This document shows, piece by piece, positions 19,815-48,329 of a DNA stretch of 64,000 nt (its first letter is position 1; every line of letters starts with the position of its first letter). The stretch spans positions 2,914,001-2,978,000 of the forward strand of contig NZ_CP033896.1 of assembly GCF_003813965.1 (NCBI RefSeq), written 5' to 3'. The translations under genes were made by a program, and so were the position numbers. This DNA comes from Corynebacterium choanae (lineage in GTDB: Bacteria > Actinomycetota > Actinomycetes > Mycobacteriales > Mycobacteriaceae). The notes under the pieces are model-generated. The model made no database searches and had not been told where the DNA came from. It saw only the letters and a program-made list of their open reading frames with translations.

Positions 19815-20047
19815 TGGTTAAAAATAAACCCCTGGAACCGGCTTAGGAAGGGTATTTCCGCATATCAACGCTGCAGTACCCCCGCTAGATCGCAATCACA
19901 CCCCATTCCCGGATTGCTTCCCCAGGAGGGTTTGCTGCCAAATTTTGCCCAATCTGGCGGGTGGCGCCAATCCTTGGAACTCCCCACCAAGGTTCCACTT
20001 TCGCCAGCTCAGCGGCACTTTCTTGGCAAAAGTGTAAGCGCGATGCA

Positions 20048-27366: not shown

Positions 27367-27480
27367 GAGTGGGTACAAGTCTGCTGGCGGCAATCGTGGA
27401 AATCATCAACACTCCGGAGTTTTCGTTGCTTGCCCTTGCAGCCCTACCGATTGCTCACTGATTGCAAAGGATACCGCTGT

Positions 27481-29052
27481 ATGTCCGGCTCAATGCCAAC
27501 TGTGCTCGAGAATATTGTTGCCGCCCGCCGAGGCCATTTGGCCGGCATTGCGGATCAGCTTCAGGGCGTTGACCTGCAGGCACTCCCACGCAGCACCCGG
27601 TCACTCTACGACTCACTGCGTCAATCAGACCAGCACAGTTTCTTGTCTAGCGAGGGCACAGCAACCGGTGCGCCGCAAGATGCTTCCACCCAATCGGATC
27701 GCCTGCCGCGCGGCAATATGCAATTCATTATGGAATGTAAGTCGGCATCGCCCTCCTTAGGTATGATCCGCGAACATTACCAACCCGGCGATATTGCCCG
27801 TATTTACTCCCGCTATGCGGCAGGTATCTCAGTGCTGTGCGAGCCGGAACGGTTCGGCGGCTCCTATGATCATTTGGCGACCGTTGCCGCATCGACGCAT
27901 CTTCCAGTCTTGTGCAAAGACTTTATTATCGACGAAATCCAGGTTTATGCGGCACGCTACTTTGGTGCGGATGCTATTTTGCTCATGCTTTCCGTGCTCG
28001 ACGACGACACCTACCGTCGGCTCGCTGATCTTGCCGCAACCCTGGGGCTCGATGTGCTCACTGAGGTAGTCGACGAAGCGGAAGTTGCCCGCGCCACCGC
28101 TTTAGGCGCAAAGATTTTCGGTATTAATCATCGCAATTTGCATGACCTGTCGATTGACCTGGGCCGGTCAGCACGGCTCGCCCCACTGTGTCCGCCGGAT
28201 GCGGTAGTGGTGGCCGAGTCTGGTATCCGGAACCATGATCATGTGCAGCAGCTTGCCGCACCGGTGAATGGTTTTCTGGTGGGAAGCCAACTCACCGGCG
28301 AGCCTGATGTGGATCACGCCTGTCGCGCCTTGGTGTTCGGCGAGCACAAAGTGTGTGGTTTGACCAGTGGATCTATGGCGCAAGCTGCTCGCGCCGCGGG
28401 TGCCGTCTACGGGGGGCTCATTGTGGAGCCTGCATCGCCAAGGGCTGTGTCTCGTGACCAAGCAACAGCAATTATGGGTGCGGAACCAAATTTGCACTAT
28501 GTTGCAGTGACTCGTCAGCCCAGTGGTTGGGCTGACGTCCTGCCAGCCGGGGTGCACGCCATCCAAATCCACAGCCCACTTGGGACACCTGCCGAAGAGC
28601 GGGAACTTGTGCAGGCCGCCCGGAAGGAACTCGCCCGTTGCACTGCATCGCAGAATGCTTCCCAATCTGGTGAGGCCACCAATAATCCCGACACCACCAT
28701 TGCTGTGTGGCGGGCGTTACCGATGAATGATCCTGCCGCGGCAGCAATTGCCACCATGCTGGTGGAAGAGTCGTTAGTGGACATGCTGGTGCTGGACTCC
28801 GGGCAGGGTGGTACCGGCACCGCCTTTGACTGGAATACCATTCCGGACTCGGTGAAATCACACTCGCTCTTAGCCGGTGGAATTGGGTTGGAGAATCTTC
28901 GCGAAGCGCTGGCAATTGGGTGCCGGGGTGTCGACTTAAATTCCGGTATGGAATATGGCGCTGCCGCCGGGGAGCATCGCTATGCGAAAGATCCCGGCAA
29001 GCTCCTTAGAGCATTTAGCGTTATTCGCCGGTTCCACCCAAGCGCTCAGTAG
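27481..29052 (+). CDS. trpCF: bifunctional indole-3-glycerol phosphate synthase / phosphoribosylanthranilate isomerase
   Basis: A 523-residue fusion catalysing two consecutive steps of tryptophan synthesis. The TrpC half (about 1-265) has ECKSASPSLGMI near residue 84, LCKDFIIDEIQ, AILLMLSVL and GINHRNLHD. The TrpF half (about 285-520) has KVCGLT near residue 290, LVLDSGQGGTG near 439, LAGGIGLEN and GVDLNSGME. The ATG at 27481 has AAAGG 10 nt upstream; the longer upstream frame is rejected. A fused trpCF is usual for Corynebacterium. It is set apart from trpGD by a terminator and its own promoter, and the trpBA genes that normally follow are inverted 1.5 kb downstream. Confidence 0.95.
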   Translation: MSGSMPTVLENIVAARRGHLAGIADQLQGVDLQALPRSTRSLYDSLRQSDQHSFLSSEGTATGAPQDASTQSDRLPRGNMQFIMECKSASPSLGMIREHYQPGDIARIYSRYAAGISVLCEPERFGGSYDHLATVAASTHLPVLCKDFIIDEIQVYAARYFGADAILLMLSVLDDDTYRRLADLAATLGLDVLTEVVDEAEVARATALGAKIFGINHRNLHDLSIDLGRSARLAPLCPPDAVVVAESGIRNHDHVQQLAAPVNGFLVGSQLTGEPDVDHACRALVFGEHKVCGLTSGSMAQAARAAGAVYGGLIVEPASPRAVSRDQATAIMGAEPNLHYVAVTRQPSGWADVLPAGVHAIQIHSPLGTPAEERELVQAARKELARCTASQNASQSGEATNNPDTTIAVWRALPMNDPAAAAIATMLVEESLVDMLVLDSGQGGTGTAFDWNTIPDSVKSHSLLAGGIGLENLREALAIGCRGVDLNSGMEYGAAAGEHRYAKDPGKLLRAFSVIRRFHPSAQ

Positions 29053-29183
29053 GCTGAACCTTCCCACTCCGCGGGGGAGGGGAGTGGTTGGCCTAGCCCA
29101 CCCGAACCCATAGCGGTTGCTCCACGAACTCCCTTAGCCTGTTCTCCTGAGCTCCCTGTCCGTACGTTCCTAGCCAACCAATC

Positions 29184-29219
29184 CGGGGTGCGATGTTTCA
29201 CGTGAAACATCGCACCCCG
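29184..29219. other. 36-bp perfect palindrome containing parS
   Basis: The exact parS core is extended by 10 perfectly paired bases on each side (CGGGGTGCGA outward from the left). As RNA it would form a long GC-rich hairpin 130 nt past the trpCF stop, so it may also work as a terminator. Confidence 0.75.
29194..29209. other. parS: parS site 1 (exact)
   Basis: Exact TGTTTCACGTGAAACA, the ParB-binding centromere sequence known from Bacillus, Mycobacterium and Corynebacterium. Lies just downstream of trpCF. Confidence 0.93.
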
Positions 29220-29230
29220 CCGTCTTTCGC

Positions 29231-29256
29231 GCCACCTGCCATAGGTGGCAGGTGGC
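29231..29256 (+). terminator. perfect 11-bp hairpin past trpCF
   Basis: GCCACCTGCCA (29231-29241) pairs fully with 29246-29256 around a 4-nt loop. No T-run follows, so termination is uncertain. Confidence 0.4.
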
Positions 29257-29603
29257 AAGAGATGCGGTGGAGGTACAGACGTAGAGTGCAGCCACAGGGC
29301 AGTATTGCGCTGCCGCATTCATCCAGGATTTCGCTTCTTCCATGCTTCGTTGGCTCACAGTGATCCGCACAATTGGCACAATATATGGGGTTTGACGCTG
29401 TTTACCGCAGTGACACTGGTGCGGCGGTATCGGGCACCGATAGGCGACGAAAAAGGCATGACAGTTCTCCTGCCATGCCCATCTTCGCTTGGCCAAGACT
29501 GACGATGCTTCGCCGCCTTACATCGGTGCACTGTGCTCGTTGGCGCCCAGACGATCAACAGTAAAAATCACTCCCGCACAGTGGCGCAGTGCATAGCTTG
29601 GTT

Positions 29604-29684
29604 GATAGTCGGCGATGGTGATGCTTGGTAGATAGTCGGCGATGGTGATGCTTGGTAGATAGTCGGCGATGGTGATGCTTGGAT
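29604..29684. repeat. 27-bp tandem repeat, three copies
   Basis: Three head-to-tail copies of a 27-bp unit starting GATAGTCGGCGATGGTGATG (29604-29630, 29631-29657, 29658-29684), identical except for the last base of the third. It abuts the 5' end of the decayed ABC-F gene. Function unknown. Confidence 0.85.
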
Positions 29685-30299
29685 GAGTGTAGACCTACAC
29701 GGGGTAGCTTTCGGATATGGTCGCAGACAATACTGTCGAAGGTGACGCTGCAAAGCCGGAACTAGTGAGCGGATGTGTCTAGTTGACCCCAATGGCAGTG
29801 GCAAAACCACATTGATACAACTCGTGAGCGGCCAGCTCAACCCGGCAGATGTCGAATTGTTCACCGCTGATCATTTGCTCATTACTGGCGGCAATGATGC
29901 TGGCAAAACCACCCTGGTGGAATGGATTGCGGCGAGCGTCCCACCTAGTACCGACGCCCACGGTGCAATGACTGCGCCCGGCACTGTAGGGTTTTGCCTC
30001 CAATCCCTCCATAACCGGAATTCCCCGGTGACCGATACCGTGCTTGGCGACACAGGGAAAGGGTGGATTTATCCGCGACTGTTTCAGCAACCACTGCGGG
30101 GACTCTCGGACGGCAATCGTCGACGCATGATGCTTGCTGCTGCCTCTGCCAATAATCCGACAATCGTCATCATCGATGCACCGACGAACTACTTGATGTG
30201 GAGACCGATAAGCAACTGGAGGTCGCACTGCGCATTTGGCCAGCACTCTTTATCCTAACGCCCCATGACCAGTGGCTTATCGACCACTGGGAGGGCTAA
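29683..30299 (+). pseudogene. decayed ABC-F type ATPase gene
   Basis: Remnant of a gene for a soluble twin-domain ABC-F ATPase (the ribosome-protection/antibiotic-resistance type). From 29683 a stretch like VDLHGVAFGYG runs into a frameshift near 29715-29750, where TILSKVTL is read in another frame, and an in-frame TGA. Then DPNGSGKTT (Walker A) and a long piece including GLSDGNRRRM (a signature relic) and TIVIIDAPTNYL (Walker B with Glu changed to Ala). A one-base deletion near 30191 throws the rest out of frame; read in the other frame it continues as LDVETDKQLE and TPHDQWLIDHWEG up to the TAA at 30297. At least two frame breaks and a lost catalytic Glu make it non-functional. Only part of the second ATPase domain remains. 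It sits exactly between trpCF (+) and trpBA (-). Confidence 0.75.
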
Positions 30300-30357
30300 A
30301 CATTACACCTCACCGCAGTCGAGCAATCGTCCGCCGACGCAACACTGTGAGATGCTT

Positions 30358-30373
30358 TGTTTCACGTGAAACA
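30358..30373. other. parS: parS site 2 (exact)
   Basis: Exact TGTTTCACGTGAAACA, with further near-palindromic flanks (TGCTT / AAGGCA), in the gap between the decayed ABC-F gene and trpA. Confidence 0.93.
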
Positions 30374-30429
30374 AGGCATGTTCCGGCATTGCCACAGGCT
30401 TCCGCCCGGGAAGTAATGCACAGCACAAA

Positions 30430-30463
30430 GCGGGGCATTGTTTCACGTGAAACAATGCCCCGC
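30430..30463. other. 34-bp perfect palindrome containing parS
   Basis: The parS core is extended by 9 perfectly paired bases on each side (GCGGGGCAT outward from the left). It lies about 110 nt past the trpA stop on the minus strand and would fold into a strong RNA hairpin, so it may also terminate trpBA transcription. Confidence 0.75.
30439..30454. other. parS: parS site 3 (exact)
   Basis: Exact TGTTTCACGTGAAACA, only 81 bp from site 2, centred in a 34-bp palindrome downstream of trpA. Confidence 0.93.
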
Positions 30464-30572
30464 CGATGATGAAATTGAGCAAACGCCTGCAGCAGGATCC
30501 GGATGCTTTCCCGCGAGCAGGATTATCCGATCTGACTTCGAACAAAGCCCGTAACCGCGCTGGACGTTGACC

Positions 30573-31415
30573 CTAATTACGCCGCGTCGCGGCTTTCATC
30601 GCTTGCACGAAGCTGGTGAGTTCATCGGTTAGGGCCTGCGGGTCAGCAACAGTACGAACAGCAGGATGTTCACCGGTGAGATGCTTGCCAATAATCCGCA
30701 CTATTGCCGAACCGCTGATAGCACCTGCAGCACCAGCCTCCACTGCATCGCGCACATGCTGCGGTGTGGAGATACCAAATCCCAACAGCGCCGGTGCACC
30801 CTGGAAACTGTGCAAATAGTCCACTAGTTCCCGCAGACCAGTGGTGGAAGCAGCGGTCTCCGCGCCGGTCACTCCGAGCCGGGATACGGCATAAATATAA
30901 CCGGTGGAATGTGCTGCCACACTGGCAATAGTTGCCTCGCTGGCACTTGGGGGTGCGATGAAGATTTGATCGATTCCGTGTGCATTAGCTGCCTGTTTAA
31001 ATGGAGTACCTTCCCGCACCGGAATATCGGGGATGAGTACCGAGTCCGCGCCAACAGCGGCCAGGTCGGCATAGAACTCGTCCAATCCACGGCTGAACGG
31101 CACGTTGCCATAGATCAACAACCCAATGGGCAGATCAGGGTGGGCATCACGGATACGTTTCACTACGCTGAGTGCACCGCGGAGATCGACACCGGCATCC
31201 AATGCCCGAATGTGCGCCTCCTGAATGGTCGGTCCATCGGCAACCGGATCGGTGAAGGGGACACCGAGCTCTAATGCATCAGCGCCGGCGGCAATAAGAG
31301 TTTCGATAATCTCGAAGCTGGTCTCTAAATCGGGATCACCGATCATGACGAAAGGAACAAATGCCCCTTCATTGCGGGCTTCAAGTTTGGCAAAGAGCGC
31401 GTCGTAACGGGTCAC
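30573..31415 (-). CDS. trpA: tryptophan synthase alpha chain
   Basis: A 280-residue TIM-barrel enzyme that splits indole-3-glycerol phosphate to indole and glyceraldehyde 3-phosphate, passing indole to TrpB through a channel in the alpha2-beta2 complex. Catalytic Glu49 lies in [11 protein letters not shown] and catalytic Asp60 in [21 protein letters not shown]-like LLIYGN and [10 protein letters not shown] match the family. The GTG start overlaps the trpB stop (GTGA), so the two are translationally coupled, as is usual. The unit runs opposite to trpE-GD-CF. Confidence 0.96.
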
Positions 31416-32674
31416 TGGTCTTCCTCCAAGCGGTATTCCGGATGTTCTGCCAAGGTACGTCGAATGTGGTCGACATCCTTATCGCCCCGCCCAGAGAGCG
31501 ACACCAAGATCACTGTTTCCTGCTTCTTACGTTCAGCTTCTTCCGCTTCTTTTAACGCATATGCCAGTGCGTGGGAGGATTCCAACGCCGGTATGATCCC
31601 CTCATGGCGGCTGAGCAACTGGAAGGCTGCAAGCGCCTCACCATCGGTAATACCGACATAACTGGCTCGTCCGGAATCATGCAGATAGGCGTGCTGTGGC
31701 CCCACACCGGGGTAATCCAGACCGGCAGAGATCGAGTAAGATTCTTCAACCTGACCGGCATCGGTGCGCATGAGATAGGAATGTGTGCCGTGCAAAATAC
31801 CGAGTTTACCCGCATAAATAGGGGCACCATGATGGCCTGAATCCAGCCCCTCACCGGCAGGCTCAACACCCACGAGGCGAACATCCTCTTCATCGATGAA
31901 GTCGGCGAACATACCAATGGCATTTGATCCGCCACCGACGCATGCAGTAACCACATCTGGGAGGCGACCAATCCGCTCCAACATTTGCGCTTTCGCCTCC
32001 TCCGAGATCACCCGGTGGAATTCACGCACAATCGTTGGAAATGGATGCGGTCCTGCCGCAGTACCAAGCAAGTAATGGGATTCATGGAACGAAGCAGTCC
32101 AATCTCGAAGCGCTTCGTTAACCGCCTCTTTCAGCGTGCCACGGCCGGCGTGTACCGGAATAACCTTGGCACCCATGAGCTCCATGCGGTACACATTCGG
32201 TTGTTGCCGACGTACGTCCTCCGCACCCATGTACACAACACATTCCAGGCCAAGCAAGGCGCAGGCTAGCGCGGTTGCTGTACCGTGCTGGCCGGCACCA
32301 GTTTCGGCGATAATCCGGGTCTTACCCATTCGCTTCGCCAATAATGCTTGCCCAATGACCTGATTGGTTTTATGGGCGCCACCGTGGACAAGATCTTCAC
32401 GCTTCAGGAAAATTCGCGCATAGCCGCGTCCCTTGCCCGGCAATGGAAGATTTGAGCATTCGGTTAGGGGAGTGGGACGTCCAAGATAGTCCTGCAAATA
32501 ACGGCGAAGTTCTGCCTTGAACTCCTCGTCGGCCATTGCCTCGACAAAGGCGCGCTCGAGCTGGTCAAGTGCCGGAATAAGAAGCTCTGGGACATATTGT
32601 CCGCCAAACTTGCCAAAATACGCCGGCAACAGCGTCGACCCGCCACTGGTATCAGGTGTGTTGTTGTCGTTCAT
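31412..32674 (-). CDS. trpB: tryptophan synthase beta chain
   Basis: A 420-residue PLP enzyme that condenses indole with L-serine to tryptophan. [11 protein letters not shown] near the N-terminus, the PLP-binding Lys102 in GGAHKTN, the glycine-rich phosphate cup [12 protein letters not shown] and the GRGDKD segment near the C-terminus are all present. The inner start at 32674 (peptide begins MNDNNTP) gives the family's usual length; the longer frame would add 82 residues of non-coding character. The ribosome site is weak (GAGAAAA). It heads the inverted trpBA unit; the promoter lies in the AT-richer region to its right and was not resolved. Confidence 0.96.
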
Positions 32675-33941
32675 CACAATTTTTCTCGTGTTGTTTTTTT
32701 CGTGCCGTGCACGCACACAGTCCAGCTTATGAGATTGAATGCCATGCACATCGGTGCGTACCAGCCTACAGCACCCTGCAACCACCCCAATGCATCCCCA
32801 GCATGCAACATTGCCCTCACACGCCACCGTCCCAGCATCCGGACAACTGTATCTTTCCGAAAGAAACAGTGAACAGGAATAGAAACGGTGGATACGCAAA
32901 CCTACAAGCGGTTCCAGCATTACACAAATATACCCAACCCCATCCGCACTAGAAGGTCACAGTGACATATTTAGCTTTCCTATGAGGTGGGCAAAAATTC
33001 GGCCGAAAGTCGGCTGTTGCCGTGTATGAGCGCAAGCATCGCCAAACCTGCCCACTCTCTACACGCGCCGGAAGCCGAGTCTTGGCGTCGCGACAAAATA
33101 CAGCGAACCACTAAAGCAGCGTGGGGAGCCAGCCCTCGGTTCACCTTTTCGCGTTTAACGGTAACCAATAGCTATAAATTGCAGGGTAAAATAACCCACT
33201 CAACAAAGTGCGCGCGATACATTTTCACAAAAGCGAAGCGCGGTGAACCTCTGCCGAACCTCAACACGCAATGCAGTATTGCGAACTGCTATCACCCTTC
33301 GACGGAAGGCTCATCACACGTTTTGCAATAGGTACCCATGAAAACCTTTCAACAATCCGCACCGCCCCTTCAGTGGAACACTCCACACCCCTTCTTGGGA
33401 AAGCTAGCGGTCATTGCAAATGACATCACATGTGCCAAAAAAATCAAGACATGCCGTGCCCGCAATGTGGCTAGCTACAGTCACAAGTTGGTTCGTTACC
33501 GCCAATCCAACCACCGAAAAGCCGGACAACCATCGCCGCGGCTACCTTCATCCCGCAAACCGCAAATTGATTCCTCCTGACTTGCTCAATGAGAGTTCTG
33601 TGTCGCAGGCATTGCTGATACGACAGTCTCCCATCTCTTCAAAGCCCATAACCGATCAACTCCTAACATCCCTTACGTGAAAACAGTTGGCAGGCAATTA
33701 CGGCGGAAGCGAGTTTTCTCACCCAATTGTCGTTGGATGCCTGTAAAGGACAGGCGCTCCCGCGCGCTCCTGTCCCAGGCTGGTTTACTCAATCCGCGGC
33801 TGCAAAATGGTTGATCTATGCCGCAAGAATTGATTATCCAACCTAATTCGTTGCAGCACAGCGTTCGCACGCACCTGATCGGATTCGCGTCTAGATTCCG
33901 CCAGCTGCTGCTCTACTCGTCAGTCACATACTGTCCACCGC

Positions 33942-33958
33942 TGGGGTAGGGGAGCGGT
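33942..33958. repeat. 17-bp dispersed repeat, copy 1
   Basis: TGGGGTAGGGGAGCGGT, 34 bp before parS 4. It differs at one base from the copy at 38973. The core GGGTAGGG equals the E. coli FtsK-orienting KOPS form, which may be chance. Confidence 0.5.
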
Positions 33959-33991
33959 TTAACGGCGCAATAACGCGGCAAAAGTGGGTTG

Positions 33992-34007
33992 TGTTTCACG
34001 TGAAACA
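33992..34007. other. parS: parS site 4 (exact)
   Basis: Exact TGTTTCACGTGAAACA in gene desert 1, without extended palindromic flanks. Confidence 0.93.
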
Positions 34008-34312
34008 ATCACCGGTTCGCGTCAAGTAAGCCCAACGACCCGCACCATTCCTTGATTGGCGAAGCGGTAAAACAATCGCTAAAGTCTCTTCAATTCAAGG
34101 GTAAGTCCTCGGTAGCGTCAGATTATTCGTGCGAGGTATTCACCGCCTTGTGGACTCCGATGGGCGCAAGGTGATGGAGTGATTGGGGGTTGCATCGCAA
34201 CACCATTGGACAACTCGGGACGATGCGTCGACGACCAGCGTGCGACGCAACAGCCGGAAGGTCTGCAGTCCGCCGCTTCAATACAGTGCTTCCAGCGCCC
34301 TTACCGCCACAA

Positions 34313-34328
34313 TGTTTCACGTGGAACA
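34313..34328. other. parS: parS site 5 (one mismatch)
   Basis: TGTTTCACGTGGAACA: the right half carries GGAAC, as in the common Bacillus form. 321 bp from site 4. Confidence 0.85.
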
Positions 34329-35316
34329 AGCAACAATCACTGTTCTACGAAGCGAACACAACAGGTGTGAAGCATTATCGTTGCTGGAGAATCAGACCCG
34401 ATGTTCTCAGTGCTCTTCATCGCAAGAATGCCTGTGGGCAAGGTGAGTCCACGATTCCCATCGAAAGTCACCGGACACAGCTACAACAGGAAAATGACCC
34501 ATCGACTCCAGGCTCTGAATCGGCTCCCACCGCAGCAGCACATCCTTCAAGCAGCGCCTGCCTTGGTAGTCGTTTTGCGCTAAGAGGCTGGCCAAATTGC
34601 AACCGATTTGGCAACCTTCCAACCTTGTTCATCACTCCCAACTGCGTGGATTAGTCGCAGTTGGTCGCTGCCTCAAACCGACACATGACTGGAAACCACT
34701 ATCCTTGGCAACCGGGTGCACAGTCGTAAGCCCTCATTGCCACAGCCCACCCTGACCTCATACTGTCAGGGATTGATTCCCCAGGGGACTTTAGCCGCGT
34801 TAAGCCAAGTCCCCTCAGCCCTTATCCCACCGCCACGCATCGCTCTTATCGCAGCTGACATCCCTTCTAATGTCCCAAATACAGCTCCCGTAGCCCCGAT
34901 TACTACCAGGAGGGCTCGTGAGCGTTTCAGAGCGTTGTAGAGCGCCTATCTCGGTCTTTGAACGAGCTTTTGGTGCCAACCCAGGACAAGCTACTGCAGC
35001 ATCTCCATCCAGCTGCTGCGTCGCGATATGACGTTCTGCCAAACCGTGTTGCAATCGATGAATTCACCAAGCGATGTAGCTTGCTGCTCGAAGCATTCCT
35101 ATTGGCATCGGAAGGTTGAGATCCCTGCCTGTATGTGAGTGGTGACTAGACACCATATCCAGGCGAAGCCAGGGAGGAACGTCAGACACCGCTACGCCAA
35201 GCCCACTGTGCGTTTATCAAAGTCGGTCAATCAACCATTCTTGTGGCGGCCAAGATGCCTCGTTCTTCAACTCACGTCCCGCAAATGCACTTGTGCGGAC
35301 TTCGTTTGGCCGGATG

Positions 35317-35332
35317 TGTTTCACGTGAAACA
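35317..35332. other. parS: parS site 6 (exact)
   Basis: Exact TGTTTCACGTGAAACA, about 180 bp past the 3' end of the MMPL gene. Confidence 0.93.
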
Positions 35333-35419
35333 TCCTTCCCGGTGGGGTGAGCGGGCTGCCTGATCACCACCGAAAAGTAGGTCGCTGCAAACAGCGGGAG
35401 TATAGGCCGCGAAATAGAA

Positions 35420-35448
35420 AACCCCCAGTTCGTGAAGAACTGGGGGTT
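35420..35448 (-). terminator. terminator after the MMPL gene
   Basis: A perfect 12-bp stem (AACCCCCAGTTC with GAACTGGGGGTT, 5-nt loop) is followed on the minus strand by TTCTATTTC, 50 nt past the stop codon. A standard Rho-independent terminator. Confidence 0.88.
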
Positions 35449-35498
35449 GCAGTCATCCATCGTACAAACATGACGTCATCATGTGAGCGATTTGTTGG

Positions 35499-37649
35499 TT
35501 AGGTGTTTGCTGGAGCGTTTCCTGCGGGCGCTTTACCCGGCTTCCACATCGTGTCACCGAGTAGCTCAAATAACGCGGGAACAACCAATGTCCTAACCAG
35601 GAATGTGTCAAGCAAAATACCAATACCAACGATGATGCCAACCTGCGTCAAAGTGATGAGCGGGAGCACACCGAGAACAACAAATACCGCGGCAAGCACG
35701 ATACCGGCACTGGTAATCACGCCGCCGGTAAGACCGACGGCACGAACCATCCCATATTTCGTTCCATGGGTATCGGCTTCCTCTCGGGCACGCAACACAA
35801 GGAACACTGTGTAGTCGATACCAAGAGCAATGAGGAACAGCACCGCATACAGTGGCGCTTCGTAGGCTAGACCGGGGAAATCGAAGACGTACTTGGAAGC
35901 GAGCGCACCAACACCGAGCGCTGCCGCAGTCGACAACGCTGCCGCGCCTAGCAGGAGCACCGGTGCCACCAGCGCCCGCAGGATCATCACAAGGATGAGG
36001 AACACTGCAAGGAAGATCAGCGGAATGACAACCTTCATATCGCGAATCGTCGCATCGCGGGAATCCAAGGTTTGTGCCGGTTCGCCGCCGACAATCGCGG
36101 ACGGTGCATTCGCCTCAAGATCGGCACGCAACGCGGCAACTTTATCTAGTTGTTCTTGACTTCCCGGATCCCCTGGAATCGCCACCACTAGCTTGGTGAG
36201 GTTACCGTCGACGGACTGCGTCGGAGGACCGAGGGGCCGCAGCTGGTTTGCTTCGACTACCGTTGAGGCGGCGTCGAGCTCTGAAGAGTCGACAACAATC
36301 TGTGCCGGCCCGGAAGCAGACATTCCGGTTCGTTCCGCCAGCAATGTTTGACCATCTACAGCCTCAGACTGGGTACGGAATTGTTGCGTGGTCGACAAGC
36401 CGAATCGGGGCGCTGCAATACCGAATGACAAAGCACCCAACAGCACAACCATAATTGCCAACACCGCGGCAGGCTTCTTCGCTACAGTTTTCGCAACTCG
36501 GTAGAACGCGCCATCAGCATCGTTCTCAACAGCATCTGTGTGGCGTGGGATCTTCGGCCAGAACAAGAAGCGCCCGGTGACGGCCAACAGCGCGGGCAAC
36601 AGCAATAGGCCAAAGCTTAACGCAAATAGCAATCCGATAGCGCTAGAGAGGCCGAGGCTGCGATAGGAAGGAATCGTGGCCGCCAGCAACGTCAACAACG
36701 CAATAACCACTGTCAGATTGGAGGAGACAATGGCCGGCACGGTTCCCTTCAGCGAGGCAGCTAACGCTTCACGATGATCTTCATAGCGGCGAAGCTCCTC
36801 GCGATAGCGGGACACTAGCAATAGGGCATAGTTAGTGCCGGCACCGAACACCAACACCGAGGTAATCCCCGCGGTGGAACCATCCGCTTGGAACCAGCCG
36901 GTGGTTTCGGCCAGCCAACTGGTAAACGAGCTTGCGGCACGATCAGCTAGCCCAATTCCCAACAGGGGCACGAGCCACAGGGTAGGGGATCGGTAGGTCA
37001 AGATAAGCAATACCGCAACAACTAATGCAGTTACTGCAAGCAGAGTGAAGTTCGCACCCTTGAATGCTGCTGCCGAGTCGGCGGCGAATCCTGCCGGACC
37101 TGATACATAGGCTGTGTCGCCTTCTGGTAGTCGGGTACGGAGTTCCTCCCGCACTTGCTCAACAGCATCGGTGAGGTCGGTGCCGTCAATGTCGCCAGGA
37201 AGTTGCACTGCAGCCTGGCCGAGGTTGTCTGCCACCGGAATAAATTGCACCGGGGCGTCACTTGCTGCCAACCCGGTCACATCCAGCGTTTCGGTGACGG
37301 CAGCAGCCAAAGTATCCAATTGTGGTGCTACAGGGTTGTCTCCGGTGTCGACGATAATCGTGGCAGCGAGTGTGTCGCTGCCCGGGAATTCGTCACTGAG
37401 ACTTGCAACAGTTGCAGAATCACTATTGTCTGGCAAGGTTTGCGGCGCGCTACTTGAGTCGTCGGCTTTCAATCCGACGATAAGACCCAACGCGATAGCA
37501 ACGAACCCGACAATGACTGCCCAAGAAATTGACTTCTTTAAGACAATAGGGGCGAAGAGGGACGGTTTTCGTTTGACAGATGTTTCACGTGAAACATCTG
37601 TTGGAGGCACCGCCGTGTCGTGTGGCGGTGAATGATGCGTAGTATGCAT
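35499..37649 (-). CDS. MMPL/RND-family membrane transporter
   Basis: A 716-residue membrane protein of the MMPL branch of the RND superfamily, which exports lipids or drugs with proton motive force. It shows the duplicated plan: one span (about 40-60), an extracellular domain, a block of spans, a second extracellular domain and a second block. FGAGTNYALLLVSRYREEL in the first half and ALGIDYTVFLVLRAREE in the second are the paired family signatures. Being short (mycobacterial MmpL3 is over 900), it lacks the long C-terminal tail; the substrate is unknown. The start at 37649 is favoured over 37682 but neither has a strong ribosome site. A parS site (37581-37596) lies inside the coding sequence and encodes residues 18-23 (DVSRET), in the cytoplasmic N-terminal tail. 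Confidence 0.88.
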   Translation of the reverse strand: MHTTHHSPPHDTAVPPTDVSRETSVKRKPSLFAPIVLKKSISWAVIVGFVAIALGLIVGLKADDSSSAPQTLPDNSDSATVASLSDEFPGSDTLAATIIVDTGDNPVAPQLDTLAAAVTETLDVTGLAASDAPVQFIPVADNLGQAAVQLPGDIDGTDLTDAVEQVREELRTRLPEGDTAYVSGPAGFAADSAAAFKGANFTLLAVTALVVAVLLILTYRSPTLWLVPLLGIGLADRAASSFTSWLAETTGWFQADGSTAGITSVLVFGAGTNYALLLVSRYREELRRYEDHREALAASLKGTVPAIVSSNLTVVIALLTLLAATIPSYRSLGLSSAIGLLFALSFGLLLLPALLAVTGRFLFWPKIPRHTDAVENDADGAFYRVAKTVAKKPAAVLAIMVVLLGALSFGIAAPRFGLSTTQQFRTQSEAVDGQTLLAERTGMSASGPAQIVVDSSELDAASTVVEANQLRPLGPPTQSVDGNLTKLVVAIPGDPGSQEQLDKVAALRADLEANAPSAIVGGEPAQTLDSRDATIRDMKVVIPLIFLAVFLILVMILRALVAPVLLLGAAALSTAAALGVGALASKYVFDFPGLAYEAPLYAVLFLIALGIDYTVFLVLRAREEADTHGTKYGMVRAVGLTGGVITSAGIVLAAVFVVLGVLPLITLTQVGIIVGIGILLDTFLVRTLVVPALFELLGDTMWKPGKAPAGNAPANT
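37576..37601. other. parS: parS site 7 (exact), inside the MMPL coding sequence
   Basis: Exact TGTTTCACGTGAAACA at 37581-37596, extended to a 26-bp perfect palindrome. It falls within codons 18-23 of the MMPL gene, in a disordered N-terminal tail where the sequence is tolerated. Confidence 0.92.
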
Positions 37650-37701
37650 GTCCACCAGTGTGCCACAAATTGATACGACCATTCACTTAGGGATTTGCCT
37701 C

Positions 37702-37707
37702 TATGAT
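37702..37707 (+). promoter_or_regulatory. -10 box for the SBF-like transporter gene, leaderless
   Basis: TATGAT ends 6 nt before the ATG at 37714, so transcription should begin at the start codon. The -35 region is poor. No Shine-Dalgarno sequence is present. Confidence 0.5.
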
Positions 37708-37713
37708 CGTGGT

Positions 37714-38688
37714 ATGCACGTTCGTTCCATCCCCTGGCTTCGGCGACCCCGGGATCCGCTCATAGCCCTGATACTTGGCGCAGTCGTTGTTGCGATAATT
37801 TTCCCGATACACGGTGCTGCGGCCGACTGGTTCTCCATTGCCACGAAGATCGCTATCGCTCTGCTGTTCTTCCTCTACGGCGCACGACTCTCGCCACAGG
37901 AAGCACTCAAAGGGTTAACCCACTGGCGACTGCACCTCACGATCCTCGGCTTTACCTATGTAGCCTTTCCACTCATCGGGCTCGGCTTCATGTTGCTGGA
38001 GGGACATTGGGCGCAACCGCTCCTTCCCGGACTCGTGTATCTCACCTTGGTGCCATCGACGGTTCAATCATCTGTCGCATTCACTTCCATTGCCCGGGGC
38101 AATGTTGCCGGCGCAATTGTCAGCGCATCACTTTCCAACCTTCTAGGCGTAGTGTTCACACCGCTATTGGTCATGCTGTTCATGTCACGGGGTGGGGTGC
38201 ATATCGATGGAAGCGTTTTTGTCGACATCGCCATCCAACTGCTTCTGCCCTTCGTCCTTGGACAGCTTGCCCGACCTTGGGTGAAAACCTTTGCGGCAAA
38301 CAAGGGCACCAAGATTGTGGATCGCGGTTCCATCACGATGGTGGTGTATTCCGCATTCTCCGCAGGCATGGTGAACGGAATTTGGAGTAGCGTCTCAGTC
38401 TCATCAATTCTGGCGTTAGTGATCTTCTCCATTGTCCTTGTTGCTTTCATGCTGTGGTTAACACGAACAGTCGCTAACCTTTTAGGGTTCCCACGGGAAG
38501 ATATGCTTGCGATCCAATTCTGCGGAACGAAGAAGTCACTCGCCACCGGCTTACCGATGGCTGCCGTGATCTTCGCCGGACAATCCGTGAGTCTTCTCAT
38601 CTTGCCGTTAATGGTGTTCCATCAAGTACAACTGATGATGTGCTCGGCACTAGCAAGCCGCTATGCCGCACAAGGCTCGAAGCTATAA
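37714..38688 (+). CDS. SBF-like (bile acid:sodium symporter-related, YfeH-type) transporter
   Basis: A 324-residue membrane protein with about ten hydrophobic spans, of the SBF-like family related to bile acid:Na+ symporters. FFLYGARLSPQEAL, LTLVPSTVQSSVAFTSIARGNVAGA, and QFCGTKKSLATGLPMA are the family's conserved blocks; the last two contain the discontinuous helices that bind Na+ and solute in this fold. Natural substrates of the bacterial branch are mostly unknown. The start at 37714 is chosen because a -10 box lies 6 nt upstream and the first span then begins after a short basic tail. It is divergent from the MMPL gene and has its own strong terminator. It lies in the middle of the parS cluster. 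Confidence 0.87.
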   Translation: MHVRSIPWLRRPRDPLIALILGAVVVAIIFPIHGAAADWFSIATKIAIALLFFLYGARLSPQEALKGLTHWRLHLTILGFTYVAFPLIGLGFMLLEGHWAQPLLPGLVYLTLVPSTVQSSVAFTSIARGNVAGAIVSASLSNLLGVVFTPLLVMLFMSRGGVHIDGSVFVDIAIQLLLPFVLGQLARPWVKTFAANKGTKIVDRGSITMVVYSAFSAGMVNGIWSSVSVSSILALVIFSIVLVAFMLWLTRTVANLLGFPREDMLAIQFCGTKKSLATGLPMAAVIFAGQSVSLLILPLMVFHQVQLMMCSALASRYAAQGSKL

Positions 38689-38719
38689 AACCTGCGCCCC
38701 AATGCAACACCAACACAGA

Positions 38720-38750
38720 ACGCCACCGGATAACCCGGTGGCGATTCTTT
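38720..38750 (+). terminator. terminator after the SBF-like gene
   Basis: A perfect 9-bp stem CGCCACCGG / CCGGTGGCG with a 5-nt loop, followed by ATTCTTTT. Rho-independent. Confidence 0.9.
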
Positions 38751-38776
38751 TGATCCGGCTATCCGCTACCACACCT

Positions 38777-38792
38777 CGTTTCACGCGAAACA
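38777..38792. other. degenerate parS (two mismatches)
   Basis: CGTTTCACGCGAAACA; the central CACGTG is broken to CACGCG, so binding is likely weak. Possibly a decaying site. Confidence 0.45.
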
Positions 38793-38972
38793 TTCCAGGG
38801 ATACCGACACCACCCCAGCTAGTGATCCAACGCCAAACCCTTCGAGCAAACTTCGCGTAGTTGACTGGGATGGCTTACTGGCAACCATCAATCCGCCCAT
38901 ACAAAATCTTCAACGTTGTGGCACTGTGAACACCGTTAGAGCCCAGCAGCATTCTCCCCACTTAAGATTCTG

Positions 38973-38989
38973 TGGGGTAGGGGAGTGGT
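38973..38989. repeat. 17-bp dispersed repeat, copy 2
   Basis: TGGGGTAGGGGAGTGGT, one base different from the copy at 33942, also in gene-free DNA near parS sites. Confidence 0.5.
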
Positions 38990-39306
38990 CAGTAGTCGAC
39001 CGGAACCAAGACACTGCACATTGGCATCACCAAGTCGCCCAGCAATGCCAGCACACCATAACGGGAATATTGGCCTCTGCTCGCAGCCGCAAGCTCAAGC
39101 GGTTACAACAACTGGCGATACTGCTGCCGTCGCCAGGTACCGCCGCTCGGGTTCCTCCAGTGTTGCCCTTCACCGCATCGAAAACCACTCATTCGCAGAG
39201 TGGCAAAAATTCTTCCGGCCACGCCAAGCGTGGACAGGTGCGCTAAGCCGGGAGCCCGGTTGCCGGTGGGACAAATATGGAAGTTAGCCATCGGGGAAGA
39301 CTGAAA

Positions 39307-39322
39307 AGTTTCACGTGAAACA
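39307..39322. other. parS: parS site 8 (one mismatch)
   Basis: AGTTTCACGTGAAACA, differing only at the outermost base. Confidence 0.87.
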
Positions 39323-39802
39323 CGACCTGGGTACTTCACTCATTTCGCCCCTCACCCATCCCGTTAATAGCTTCATCTCTAGCCGGACACCTCATTGTTT
39401 AGCGGGTTGCTGCCGCCACTTCCATCCGCATAAACAACAAAAAACCCGCTCACTACGCTTTGCGACCGCAATTCGGACAAGCAATGCTATGGATCGCAGG
39501 TGCGCCGCATCCCCACATACGACTTACAAATCGAAGTCCACGGTTCTATACGGGTGCCTGCGAACTCCGGTAGTTGGCCATGATGCAAAGCACTTTCAAG
39601 GAAGTTGCTCAGTCTTTCCAATTCCGGGACACCACATATCGGATTCCGAAAATTGGTAGGAGCCCACAGGATGCGTCCTCTCCGTTTTGGAGTTGCTCCT
39701 GTATCGCCTCAGATCGGTGCGGCTTAAAAGAGTGGGACTTAAGAATTTTTCTGCCTGTTCAACATGCAGAGGACATGCCGGCAACCGTGCGCATCCGTTG
39801 AA

Positions 39803-39818
39803 TGTTTCACGTGAAACA
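39803..39818. other. parS: parS site 9 (exact)
   Basis: Exact TGTTTCACGTGAAACA in gene desert 2. Confidence 0.93.
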
Positions 39819-40086
39819 CAGGTATGGGGAAAACAAAACATCACGGATGAGTTAATCTCAGCCATTATCGAGCACAGACTTGTGTCGACCCTCGTGCTTA
39901 GTCGGTCAGCATGAAATACGGATTGAAGGTTCAGCGACGACTGAGTGATCCAATTGTCGCACCTGGTCTTGCGAAACTATGTAGCGAACCAAGTGACCGT
40001 CAAACAATGGGAATGGTGAAGGAGGAATGCACACCTTGGGGGAACATCATCCTTCAATCTTCACGCTCGTCCAGGCCACCCAATGA

Positions 40087-40102
40087 CGTTTCACGTGAAA
40101 CA
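40087..40102. other. parS: parS site 10 (one mismatch)
   Basis: CGTTTCACGTGAAACA, differing only at the outermost base; 284 bp from site 9. Confidence 0.87.
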
Positions 40103-40397
40103 CTATCCGACAAGTCCCAATGCGCCCCCGGTTGCACGTTCAATCTCAATAGTTTCTTTTAAGGGTTTCATTGTTCATAGCCGCTTCACTGATGAAGCGA
40201 AGTTGTGTTTGGGCACGCCAGGCGAGAGCAGTCTTAGCCGCCAAGAGAGCACAGCATCGGAGGGGCCTGCACATTACAGACCTGAACGACTGTCAGTAAA
40301 CTTTCGGCGCGGATGGTGTGGACATTGAATGTTAGTGTGCTGATTGTGCCTGCAAGCGCTGTATGGTCACGAGGTTGGACGTTGTGGCGAGCCGGAA

Positions 40398-40413
40398 TGT
40401 TTCACGTGAAACG
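40398..40413. other. parS: parS site 11 (one mismatch)
   Basis: TGTTTCACGTGAAACG, differing only at the last base; 311 bp from site 10. Confidence 0.87.
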
Positions 40414-40725
40414 ATTGGAAACTCGAAAGGTTCACCGTTGCGCTCGGAAAGGGGAGCCAGTCGGGTCAACCGCAGGAGGCTATCGATGTGGCGATGTAGG
40501 CTTCCGCACACGGCTGCTTAATCATTGTTTCCGTTCCATGTTGCTCGACAGGCATACGTGCACAGGTGCTTCGAGCGCTATCAGCCGTCGCGAGAGTTGG
40601 GGAGCTCGGTATCAATGTGGACTAGCAGTCTGATGCAAACATTTTGGAAGTTGTAACTCAGGGAATGGTCTCTTACTTTCGGGCTGTCTATCGTTGCTGC
40701 GACCTGTCGTTTGGGGATGTCCGAT

Positions 40726-40741
40726 TGTTTCACGTGAAACA
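40726..40741. other. parS: parS site 12 (exact)
   Basis: Exact TGTTTCACGTGAAACA; 328 bp from site 11. Confidence 0.93.
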
Positions 40742-41088
40742 AGGGGAGTGCAGCGGCTCGTGGGGGTTGCGCTTTCAATCAATACCGGTGAGGAGATTGG
40801 CCACACCCTTTGAATAACGACTCGGTGTGTGAGCCATGGTGGTGCCGATAAAGGACGAAGACGAACTCTTTCGCGGTTTCCTGAAGTCTGTGTTTGGAGA
40901 AAGACACCGTTTTCCACCCGAACCAGTTTCAACCCCTCGCAACAGACAAATGTAGCGGGAAGGGATCGCTAGACACTCGGCAGGAAAACCTTAGTAGAAA
41001 CCAGAACGGATAAACCGCATTGGATACCGCCATGCGTGGTGTCAGCACCCTGGTACGGCGTGTTGGTCGGTTTGCTGTGGCCGGGCAT

Positions 41089-41104
41089 TGTTTCACGTGA
41101 AACC
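41089..41104. other. parS: parS site 13 (one mismatch)
   Basis: TGTTTCACGTGAAACC, differing only at the last base; 363 bp from site 12. It is the last site in the window. Confidence 0.87.
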
Positions 41105-41331
41105 ATCGATCCGGAACCGGACGTACGCTACACAAAGTCTCCCGTTCAAGCCGCGGCCACAGTACACAATGAGAAGAACCAGTCGGCGCCTTATGTGTAT
41201 GCGGGTGGGCGAAAGGTGGCTGTGCACCGGCCAACAACCTTGGCACGATGAGCAACTCAGATTCTTCATGATTTTTCTCGCAACCGACCCATAGGTTCGC
41301 AAACAGAGCGACAGTGGGGAACAATGGTGCC

Positions 41332-42808: not shown

Positions 42809-42955
42809 GCAGGCAACAATTTTCGATAATGATTAGCTTTCGGTTCTCTCTTTTCTCTTTCAACCGGTGTCTCATGGCGGCGCGGCACAGTCGGGTGCAC
42901 TATGACAACGTGTCGCTCCCTCAAGCTTCGTCACACGCGGGTCATACTGGGAATC

Positions 42956-44380
42956 ATGCCGGACTTGCCAGCACCACTCGAGGAGCAATCAGACACAGCC
43001 GCAGCACTGCTGCATGTTTTAGCCTCGCATGCACCCGCCGAGTTACGAAATGACCGCGGCGAAGTCGACCCTGAAGCGCTGTGCTGTGCACTCGAGATCC
43101 TCGCTGAGCAACAATCCCCCACCGGCGAAGGCTATAGTTTTAGCTGGCCGGGAAAACAGCAGGCACAACAAATCGCTTCACCTGCACAGTTACAGCAGCA
43201 ATCACGGCTGTGTCGTGCCGACGGTGCCGCGTTCCAGCCTGCGACACCACTGGATCATCATGCGCTCATTGTTGGCGATAACCTCTTTGGGCTTGCCCAC
43301 TATGAACACTTGACCAGCGAGCAGCCGGAAGTTATCTATATTGATCCGCCATATAACACCGGTGGCAGCATGGTGTATGCAGACTCATTCCACGATAAGC
43401 GCCGTGCCCGCGGCACCGAACCGGTTGGGAAACATGCTTCGTGGCTGAGCTTGATGCTGCCGCGGCTCCGCCTTGCCCGGGATATTCTTGCCGATAATGG
43501 AGTGATCTATGTCAGCATTGACGATACGGAAGTAGCGCAACTGCGCCTAGTGATGGATGAGCTATTCGGGGTACGGAATCATCTTGCAACCTTCGTCTGG
43601 GAGACGAAACGTGCCGCCCGAGGTGTCCCACCAAAACACCTGGTGATGACGAATCACGAATATGTGTTGGCCTATGCCAAACATGCTTCCCACTTCCAGT
43701 TTCGGGGGGTGGAACGTGAGATTGACGGCTTTCACAATCCGGATGAGGATCCCCGCGGGCCGTGGCGCTCTGAATCGATGAAAGCAACAGATCGGCGCAG
43801 CAATGTTTTCACCATCACCGATCCGGTCACGGGACGCCGCTATACGGGGAATTGGGCATTTACGCAAGAGACCCTCACGGCAATGATCGCGGACAATCGG
43901 GTGGTGTTCCCTGCTGATCCGCAGGGCACGCCACGGCAAAAGAAGTTCTTTGATTCTTATCGAAATCCCCGCAAAGCCTTTGTTACCCAACTTGGCTGGT
44001 ACTCGACAGAAGCTGCTACGAAAGCGCTACAGCGTCAATTCGATGGTGTGCGGGTGTTTGACTTCCCTAAGCCGCAGGCATTGCTGCAATTTTTGCTCAA
44101 GCAGGCGACGGATAATGGCATTGTGCTGGATTTTTTCGCCGGCTCCGGATCCACCGCCGAGGCTGTGGTGGCGTGTAATGCTGCCGATGGCGGGAATCGT
44201 CGAGCAGTGTTGATGCAACAACCGGAAATATTGCCGGCCGATGCTGCCGCCCGCCAGCTGGGGCTAGAAACCATCAGCGATATCACCCGTGCCCGTTTTG
44301 AACGATGTCTTGCGGTCTCGAATTCTGACCGCTCCGGAACCGGTGCGTGGCCGTTGCAAGTATATGAGATAACCTACTAA
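42956..44380 (+). CDS. site-specific DNA adenine methyltransferase (type III Mod-like), solitary
   Basis: A 474-residue N6-adenine DNA methyltransferase of the beta class: catalytic motif IV DPPYNTG (about residue 129) precedes the AdoMet-binding motif I DFFAGSGSTAEA (about residue 391). Between them lie VSIDDTE and WETKRAARG-type segments typical of type III modification subunits and Dam-like enzymes. The protein is complete but shorter than most Mod subunits. No restriction (Res) gene is next to it: trhO lies upstream and a truncated DUF2200 gene downstream. It therefore looks like a solitary enzyme that marks DNA, either for regulation or as a survivor of a lost restriction system. The start at 42956 is preferred because a CATACT box ends 7 nt upstream; an in-frame ATG at 42902 is possible. 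Its target sequence cannot be read from the gene. Confidence 0.87.
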   Translation: MPDLPAPLEEQSDTAAALLHVLASHAPAELRNDRGEVDPEALCCALEILAEQQSPTGEGYSFSWPGKQQAQQIASPAQLQQQSRLCRADGAAFQPATPLDHHALIVGDNLFGLAHYEHLTSEQPEVIYIDPPYNTGGSMVYADSFHDKRRARGTEPVGKHASWLSLMLPRLRLARDILADNGVIYVSIDDTEVAQLRLVMDELFGVRNHLATFVWETKRAARGVPPKHLVMTNHEYVLAYAKHASHFQFRGVEREIDGFHNPDEDPRGPWRSESMKATDRRSNVFTITDPVTGRRYTGNWAFTQETLTAMIADNRVVFPADPQGTPRQKKFFDSYRNPRKAFVTQLGWYSTEAATKALQRQFDGVRVFDFPKPQALLQFLLKQATDNGIVLDFFAGSGSTAEAVVACNAADGGNRRAVLMQQPEILPADAAARQLGLETISDITRARFERCLAVSNSDRSGTGAWPLQVYEITY

Positions 44381-46931: not shown

Positions 46932-48329
46932 GTGCAGCAGCATTCCACCGGTGCAGGCAGGCTTGCAGTCTGCGGTGCGATAGCACTGCTCACACTCAGT
47001 GGTTGTCAGGTCGCCTCCTCATCCAGTCCCAATCCGGGAGCAGCTTCCCCGACACCGTCAACCGGTGCCACATCGCACCCGCAAGGGCTCACGAATCGGG
47101 AAGTGTGGGAAGCAACAGCATTTGCCTATCAGCCATCTTCCAGCGGTGATGGGGTAGCAATTCGTGGTTTCCGCAACGACACCAACCCGCATCCAGGGCA
47201 GCCGGTGGTGTTTCCCGACACTGATCCCACCGGCCAGCCCATCACCGAGATCGCCCCATTGGCGTTTTGCTATACGGTGTGTGGTGATTTCATCACCGAT
47301 GACACACAAACCGAGATGCCATTAGCAACCCCAATACATGAACAGCGTATGATACTGGCAATTGATCGCTGGCCTGCCCAGTTGCGGCGAATCGGAGATG
47401 GGGCATTTACCTATAACCAACTGCAGCATATTCCGAACCACTGGGGAACCATTACTCATATTGGTGCCGCCGCCTTTGAAGGCAACCATCTGCAATCCCT
47501 ACCACAGTCGTGGGAAGGTGTAGTTGACCTCGGGGAATCCGCATTCGCCGCAAATAAGCTAACCGCAATTCCGGCCTCTTTTGGGGTGTTGACCACCCTG
47601 CCCGCATGGGTGTTTAGCGGCAACCAGCTGCAGGCTATTGCAGGCGATTTTGGCAATGTTACTCAGATTGGGGCGGGCGCTTTCAGCCATAACCAATTGC
47701 AGCGTCTGCCGAGGAATTGGGGCAGCATTAAAACTCTTGCGGATGGCGCGTTTGCCGATAATGCGCTGGAAACCCTCGCCCCGGCATGGGATGGGGTGAC
47801 AAGCATTGGCCAGTCGGCGTTTGCAGGTAATGCTCTTCGCGCACTTCCTCAGCAGTGGGGGCAAGTGCGCTCCTTGGGTGCTGGTGCCTTCGCCGACAAT
47901 GCGCTGCAAACCCTGCCTTCTCACTGGGGTGAGCTGCAAGAAATTCCGGCTGAAGCATTTGCCCGCAACACCATTACTGCACTGCCGGCCACGTTTGGTG
48001 CGGTCACCCACATTGGCGTGGGTGCCTTCCAAGGCAATCAGATCATCGAAGTTCCGGCGGCACCGGCGCTTGCTGTTGATGACTATGCATTCGCTGACAA
48101 TCGTCTCCTCACCGTGCCGTCATCATGGGAACAGGTTCTAGCGCACAGCGAAGGAAGCATCGCCGGCAATCCGCTGTGCGGGCAACAGCCCACCGACACC
48201 CCAATTATGACTGCCGACGGGGCCCGCATTGCCCCTATCGCCTGCGGCTACTATCCGGAGCCGGCTGTGCTACCAGATGATGAACTTGAGCCCGAACCGA
48301 CCAACGCCGATCTTGCACAAACCAGATAG
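46932..48329 (+). CDS. leucine-rich-repeat lipoprotein (BspA-like repeats)
   Basis: A 465-residue surface lipoprotein. The signal peptide ends in the lipobox LSGC (acylated Cys at about residue 25), followed by a Ser/Pro/Thr linker. Residues about 153-400 are eleven or so tandem repeats of 23 residues with the pattern I-G-x-x-A-F-x-x-N-x-L-x-x-L-P-x-x-W-G, one turn of an LRR_5/BspA-type solenoid each, with an unusual conserved Trp. A Pro/Glu-rich tail follows. Proteins of this type bind host proteins, other bacteria or glycans; which applies here is unknown. The GTG at 46932 has AAGGAG 5 nt upstream. It interrupts the otherwise conserved cca-NUDIX neighbourhood, so it was probably gained. Confidence 0.85.
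   Translation: MQQHSTGAGRLAVCGAIALLTLSGCQVASSSSPNPGAASPTPSTGATSHPQGLTNREVWEATAFAYQPSSSGDGVAIRGFRNDTNPHPGQPVVFPDTDPTGQPITEIAPLAFCYTVCGDFITDDTQTEMPLATPIHEQRMILAIDRWPAQLRRIGDGAFTYNQLQHIPNHWGTITHIGAAAFEGNHLQSLPQSWEGVVDLGESAFAANKLTAIPASFGVLTTLPAWVFSGNQLQAIAGDFGNVTQIGAGAFSHNQLQRLPRNWGSIKTLADGAFADNALETLAPAWDGVTSIGQSAFAGNALRALPQQWGQVRSLGAGAFADNALQTLPSHWGELQEIPAEAFARNTITALPATFGAVTHIGVGAFQGNQIIEVPAAPALAVDDYAFADNRLLTVPSSWEQVLAHSEGSIAGNPLCGQQPTDTPIMTADGARIAPIACGYYPEPAVLPDDELEPEPTNADLAQTR

Follow-up and report, generated by a model that had tools for sequence, protein, structure and literature searches.

A dense chromosomal parS cluster of Corynebacterium choanae and parS sites that may double as transcription terminators

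The window analyzed here is a stretch of 64,000 nucleotides (positions 2,914,001–2,978,000) of the Corynebacterium choanae chromosome, which is assembled as one contig of 2,986,773 bp. Between a trpCF-like gene and an open reading frame (ORF) at 41314, the window carries 14 copies of the 16-mer TGTTTCACGTGAAACA, which we take to be the consensus of parS, the ParB target. Eight copies are exact, five have one mismatch and one has two, and all lie within positions 29194–41104 (Table 1). The inner 14-mer GTTTCACGTGAAAC, hereafter the core, is unchanged in 12 of the 14 sites. In site 34313, one inner base differs (the fifth, C instead of T when read on the minus strand), and site 38777, with its altered centre, is a doubtful member.

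An earlier reading of the window, made from its letters alone (the sequence-only reading), had named these 14 positions with the same mismatch classes (8/5/1), all of which were reproduced. It had also stated that such a sequence should be absent by chance and that the copies form a cluster, and both statements held. Dinucleotide shuffles of the window (n = 100) yielded on average 0.33 matches at up to three mismatches, with a maximum of 5 and never 14, which rules out a chance origin of the sites. A whole-genome scan at up to one mismatch found 13 copies, in this cluster and nowhere else. An even scatter over the chromosome fails because all 13 fall at 2,943,194–2,955,104. Outside the cluster, even at two mismatches the genome has only two matches, both non-palindromic, at 1.91 and 2.03 Mb. 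The final 20 kb of the contig contain no copy of the core at up to one mismatch.

The gene dnaA starts at base 1 of the contig and is followed by dnaN. At the opposite contig end, the order towards the window is RNase P protein, YidC-like protein, GidB, ParA-type ATPase and ParB, with parA and parB at 2.979–2.981 Mb. The contig end, and with it dnaA, is 31.7–43.6 kb away from the cluster, which lies entirely to one side. The ParB protein contains the ParB_N, HTH_ParB and ParB_C domains, is the sole ParB_N match of the genome and matches solved Spo0J/ParB chains with E-values down to 2e-49; Noc chains match too. Its DNA ggtgaacggcggctccgt encodes GERRLR (read by eye, L005), which fits GERRxR, the CTP-binding motif (CTP box) of ParB. 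The gene of SMC, a 1192-aa frame with both parts of SMC_N, was found at 1.884–1.887 Mb. The genome thus combines 16-bp parS copies clustered near the replication origin (oriC), parA and parB near oriC and the GERRxR motif, as in ParABS systems, with an SMC gene, as needed at the gene level for ParB-dependent SMC loading. The window very probably holds the chromosomal parS centromere of a ParABS–SMC system in a Corynebacterium-like genus, with sites 29194 and 30439 also located in terminator-like hairpins. Taken as a parS cluster, it belongs to a known kind and is dense among its members. Judging from other species, ParB-CTP clamps would load at parS, slide and bridge the region, ParA would move the ParB–parS complex, and SMC would be loaded at the cluster. 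The centromere of a mobile element or plasmid was also considered and was ruled out by the single ParB_N match and the dnaA/parAB order. The parS/ParB centromere proposed in the sequence-only reading is supported by the clustering and the proximity of dnaA, and on the protein side by the ParB domains, the ParA-type ATPase next to ParB and the presence of SMC.

The same reading had called the cluster denser than that of C. glutamicum, which agrees with 13 sites in 11.9 kb here versus ten in 35 kb in passages of PMC7083940. That the cluster would be a very strong platform for loading ParB and SMC is a prediction of that reading. Its suggestion to compare parS numbers across Corynebacterium was followed by counting the core in 242 genomes of the genus. 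Exact copies (1 to 45) were present in 241 of them, and the genome with none is 53% complete. The median was 6 copies per genome, and the genome of the window, with 12, tied for third. Five genomes, including this one, had at least 12 cores (45, 18, 12, 12 and 12), and all others had 11 or fewer. Local density and site context were followed in 97 loci from 96 genomes (window positions 20001–44000, L038–L056, L059 and L061–L138 minus L077 and L098; 1.92 Mb). These loci, of up to 20 kb each (24 kb for the window piece) and mostly around trpA, comprise the top of the trpA table and many-site genomes and so do not sample the 242 at random; an exact site is missing from one of the 97. The best counts in any 11.9-kb stretch were 45 (genome G191), 12 (window), 12 (G192) and then 9, with a median of 4. 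By the 14-mer core, the window cluster is among the three densest of the genus and is not a new kind. The sites of G032 and G229, which also have at least 12 cores in total, are spread out (in G229, one contig has nine, distributed over 36 kb). Other compact clusters comprise 5 exact cores in 1.1 kb (G236:C4:42956-44029) and 8 in 6.2 kb (G156:C1:2588653-2594884). Passages of a review (PMC7333895) name two open questions, the reason for the varying number of parS sites and the driver of their clustering. The range of 1 to 45 exact cores makes the genus a case of natural variation relevant to both.

The densest array, far above any other of the 97 loci, belongs to G191 (2,866,540 bp, one contig). 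It comprises 45 exact and 13 one-mismatch cores, i.e., 58 in 9.4 kb, all at 2,706,322–2,715,723 (L059 6322–15723). Ten of its 13 variant copies carry the inner variant seen at window site 34313. Two non-coding arrays of 27 and 31 sites, separated by an SBF-like gene and the gene next to it, lie in the interval bounded by the pcnA side and trpA and share diverged direct and inverted repeats. Spacers between the repeat copies differ by 21.1% and cores by 3.1%, a comparison that is biased because only co-aligned sites already at one mismatch or less were included. When the cores were masked during alignment, mismatches were found at 1 of 56 core positions and 452 of 2085 spacer positions. No arm of a G191 site exceeds 11. 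Helical phasing of the array was rejected (phase concentration 0.16), and no dnaA or parAB match was found at the contig ends. The site count alone is no record, since passages of PMC8743542 give 65 predicted parS for one Streptomyces. Among the literature matches listed, there was no report of a parS density like that of G191.

Across the 97 loci, 72 of the 468 exact cores lie in perfect palindromes with arms of at least 12, and 40 in palindromes with arms of at least 16. The 468 sites represent 466 distinct contexts; G032 contributes two loci, and L061 and L062 overlap by 4 kb, with one site counted twice. Genes were called by a simple codon-usage script, so that coding status and distances are approximate, and the cut-offs (arm 12, 100 nt) were set after viewing the data. 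Long arms were found at 55 of the 146 sites located up to 100 nt downstream of a facing stop codon, versus 5 of the 186 in coding sequence and 12 of the 136 in other non-coding DNA; in other words, 55 of the 72 long-arm sites are located shortly past a stop codon. With one site per flank cluster, the fractions were 49/131, 4/78 and 12/126, respectively (Fisher, 5e-8 and 1.5e-7). The median distance to the facing stop was 32 nt for long-arm sites and 132 nt for sites with arms of 9 or less. Among the co-directional long-arm sites (n = 30), T counts in the 8 bases that follow the stem averaged 4.07 on the sense and 1.70 on the antisense strand (p 0.0004), while at 93 short-arm sites the values were 1.74 and 2.02, with no clear difference (p 0.08). 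Of 77 loopless perfect palindromes with arms of at least 12 in the 1.92 Mb, 72 contain parS and 5 do not. Composites of this kind were seen in 39 of the 96 loci that have an exact site. A chance figure of about 0.5 long-arm sites, obtained with plain 1/4 odds, is too low because the bases beside the core are biased, and the coding sites (5/186) are the better yardstick. In other genera of the order, 3 of 61 sites had arms of at least 12 (29 loci of 3 kb, taken around a single site in each genome); the composite is therefore mainly a feature of this genus, as sampled.

The stems were further analyzed for co-variation in the first parS located up to 260 nt past the trpA stop, which gave 36 sites from 92 loci with trpA. 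At stem positions 10–15, Watson–Crick pairs occurred in 20–28 of the 36 sequences versus shuffle means of 9.6–17.8, and none of 2000 shuffles attained these counts. Each of the four pair types is present at positions 11, 12 and 14–17. After removal of sequences with at least 65% flank identity, 31 remained; the counts at positions 10–12 were never reached in 5000 shuffles, positions 13–17 had p values of 0.001–0.019 and position 8 of 0.017, and position 9 did not attain significance (0.07). Shifting the partners by one base lowered the number of pairs at every position from 8 to 17, although barely so at 16 (13 vs. 15). Because the stems co-vary after trpA and the co-directional sites have a sense-strand T tail, parS seems to be built into transcription terminators in this genus.

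Among the exact cores of the window, sites 29194, 30439 and 37581 are the centres of palindromes of 36, 34 and 26 nt, and the others have arms of 7–9. The first two form stable hairpins after gene 3' ends. A 66-nt stretch at 29194 folds at -32 kcal/mol (z -5.5), and the hairpin at 30439 has a z of -5.6. The tail at 30439 (TTTGTGCT) contains 5 T of 8 on the trpA strand. That at 29194 (CCGTCTTT) is weak, with 4 of 8 on the facing strand. The sense-strand T tail and the co-varying stem are properties of the genus long-arm sites, and the terminator reading draws on the genus and not on the window. Sites 29194 and 30439 remain candidate composite terminators because their distances from the stops are long, their tails are modest and a consensus terminator scan lists neither. 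At these two sites, one element would have two roles, loading ParB as DNA and terminating transcription as RNA, and the second would keep RNA polymerase from crossing the loading sites. On balance, we lean towards reading many Corynebacterium centromere sites as two-in-one elements, in which the parS palindrome would top an intrinsic terminator and loading sites would be transcription barriers; away from gene ends, clusters could grow into satellite-like non-coding arrays such as that of G191.

Several observations weigh against such a double role. The two window hairpins are 149 and 126 nt from their stops, compared to the genus median of 32 nt, and share the weaknesses just described. Two further window sites near a stop lack a long hairpin, namely 35317 (174 nt, arm 8) and 38777 (96 nt, broken core), and 37581 has an arm of 13 away from any 3' end. 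Across the genus loci, arms fall short of 12 at 91 of the 146 sites up to 100 nt beyond a stop, tails hold no more than two T at 26 of the 64 stop-facing long-arm sites, and long arms also occur at the 5 coding and 12 other non-coding sites. Finally, only 36 of the 92 trpA loci have a parS in the first 260 nt after the trpA stop.

The predominance of the core among long loopless palindromes (72/77) bears on two other explanations. It is what one would expect if the extended palindromes served ParB and not RNA, either by better binding or as cruciforms aiding loading. Window site 37581, with its arm of 13 away from a 3' end, points the same way, as do passages of PMC10954446, in which sequence beside the palindromic core is relevant to binding by a plasmid ParB. 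However, long arms go with gene 3' ends, and the T tail at co-directional sites is on the sense strand only. Eight window sites are located outside called genes and over 600 nt beyond any facing stop; their arms are 7–9 or, in one, the core is broken. Likewise, the G191 array contains no arm above 11. We therefore consider a role confined to ParB unlikely. The same 72/77 speaks against the view that these are terminators by accident, i.e., that parS arose inside already palindromic terminators without a joint function, as does the recurrence of composites in 39 of 96 loci. In favor of accident, long arms occur at only 72 of 468 sites, and a single parS suffices in C. glutamicum according to passages of PMC7083940. 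Since origin and present function are separate questions, we regard accident as a real, if lesser, possibility.

The centromere itself has a rival in the proposal that the 16-mers serve another palindrome-binding protein (Noc-like) or a mobile element instead of chromosomal ParB. The ParB paralogue Noc binds a related palindrome, and its chains match the ParB of this genome as well. Yet the genome has one ParB_N protein only, the 16-mer is the one that we take to be parS, no tRNA genes were found in the window and the surrounding genes are conserved and chromosomal. Moreover, the cluster is placed like that in passages of PMC7083940. We regard this proposal as highly improbable.

The genes around the cluster are given in Table 1; further neighbours are trpE and trpGD (plus strand, names by recognition) and a pcnA-like gene. 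In six relatives compared, the sites are flanked by trp genes and an SBF-like gene, and a pcnA-like gene is present in three of the six stretches. The trpCF-like gene has 51–64% identity to its counterpart at the same place in the trp order of these relatives, and the ORF at 41314 has relatives at 33–40% identity in four of the six stretches. Pfam gave no match for the small ORFs at 34190, 39315, 40612 and 41314. From trpCF to the ORF at 41314 (12,261 bases), 56% is without a called gene when the ABC fragment at 29773 is counted as non-coding, and most sites therefore fall outside genes. The spacing of sites in 38689–41313 is even (coefficient of variation 0.24, chance about 0.003), in a stretch picked after the fact. 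A tandem-repeat origin of this sub-array (38.8–41.1 kb) was rejected, as no array was detected and flank likeness was short and weak.

In the window, trpB-trpA is inverted relative to trpE-GD-CF (29053–32920), while the trp genes seen in G192, G191, G177, G153, G213 and G090 all point in one direction. An inversion between parS palindromes is possible, because sites 29194 and 33992 are close to its two ends, one at each. The trpCF–trpA intergenic stretch also contains a 27-bp tandem repeat (29596–29682, 3.2 copies, 98% matches) and, between the converging trp genes, a 161-aa fragment of an ABC transporter ATPase (29773–30258; PF00005, E 3e-16) with the look of a gene remnant. Beyond the cluster, the translation of the ORF at 42902–44380 contains DPPYNTG, presumably a DNA methyltransferase motif, and the ORF reads like a DNA methyltransferase; a BspA-type leucine-rich repeat protein (PF13306) is encoded at 46932–48329.

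Table 1. Genes, gene-free stretches and parS sites of the cluster (window positions; arm, arm length of the perfect palindrome)
Feature	Position	Strand	Remarks
trpCF-like gene	27430..29052	+	Name by recognition; upstream of site 29194
parS, exact 16-mer	29194..29209		Possible composite terminator; 36-nt perfect palindrome around the core (29184-29219); 149 nt past trpCF stop
parS, exact 16-mer	30358..30373		Arm 9
parS, exact 16-mer	30439..30454		Core of 34-nt perfect palindrome (30430-30463); 126 nt past trpA stop (- strand); candidate composite terminator
trpA-like gene	30573..31415	-	Name by recognition; convergent with trpCF
trpB-like gene	31412..32749	-	Name by recognition
2.6-kb stretch without called gene	32921..35498		3 sites
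parS, exact 16-mer	33992..34007		
parS variant TGTTTCACGTGGAACA	34313..34328		One mismatch
parS, exact 16-mer	35317..35332		Arm 8; 174 nt past MMPL stop
MMPL-family transporter	35499..37682	-	PF03176
parS, exact 16-mer	37581..37596		Arm 13; first ~100 nt of MMPL ORF as called, upstream of SBF-like ORF; not at 3' end
SBF-like transporter	37648..38688	+	Beside parS arrays here and in G191
2.6-kb stretch without called gene	38689..41313		7 sites (doubtful 38777 included); spacing 284-530 bp
Degenerate parS-like site	38777..38792		Two mismatches, one central; 96 nt past SBF-like stop; doubtful
parS, mismatch at outer base	39307..39322		14-mer core intact
parS, exact 16-mer	39803..39818		
parS, mismatch at outer base	40087..40102		Core intact
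parS, mismatch at outer base	40398..40413		Core intact
parS, exact 16-mer	40726..40741		
parS, mismatch at outer base	41089..41104		Core intact

The composite hairpins and the G191 array are new relative to the sequence-only reading, neither turned up among the literature matches listed, and both are parts worth further work. If the double role is true, hairpin composites would give a reason why parS is kept where it is, at gene ends, and a gene-end parS would end transcription and so avoid clashes of RNA polymerase with ParB clamps or SMC. A parS as part of a terminator is not described in passages of PMC12779278, PMC4351075, PMC7414963 and PMC10954446, and neither "terminator" nor "palindrom" occurs in the main text of PMC7083940. 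Among the matches listed for parS and ParB with intrinsic terminator or transcription termination, the papers concerned other subjects, as judged by title or start of the abstract; Rho-independent terminators were absent from the parS/ParB/Corynebacterium literature among the matches listed.

Like Rho-independent terminators, the long-arm sites of the genus have a hairpin soon after the stop, a T-rich tail on the sense strand and a co-varying stem. Unlike them, the composite has the fixed parS core as the top of its stem and is a palindrome without a spacer. To our knowledge, no terminator class with a parS core as stem top has been described.

Genome G177, which we take to be C. glutamicum ATCC 13032, has ten exact cores over 33.7 kb, with parA/parB near the contig end and dnaA near the start. 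Their arms are 12, 13, 9, 19, 20, 14, 10, 18, 11 and 17, i.e., at least 12 in seven of ten. The arm-12 site is the one inside the trpCF-like gene and is therefore not a gene-end terminator. Provided that G177 is C. glutamicum, parS sites proved by chromatin immunoprecipitation (ChIP) would sit in such hairpins. Passages of PMC7083940 describe ten parS (parS1–10) in 35 kb of C. glutamicum, all with a ParB ChIP signal and one of them in trpCF. The window resembles that system in its 16-bp sites of the B. subtilis kind, gathered in one cluster on one side of oriC, and differs in its extent (11.9 vs. 35 kb) and in that its sites are known from sequence. In Myxococcus xanthus, parS is likewise found in one region, with 24 sequences about 30 kb from ori, but just upstream of parAB (passages of PMC3778016); the comparison covers number and place. 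Streptomyces chromosomes carry on average 22.8 predicted parS (range 11–65, 20 genomes; passages of PMC8743542) and share with the window many sites biased to one side of oriC. In contrast to Streptomyces, where on average 45% of the parS sites lie in an origin island of about 50 kb (passages of PMC8743542), the window has fewer sites, packed into 12 kb.

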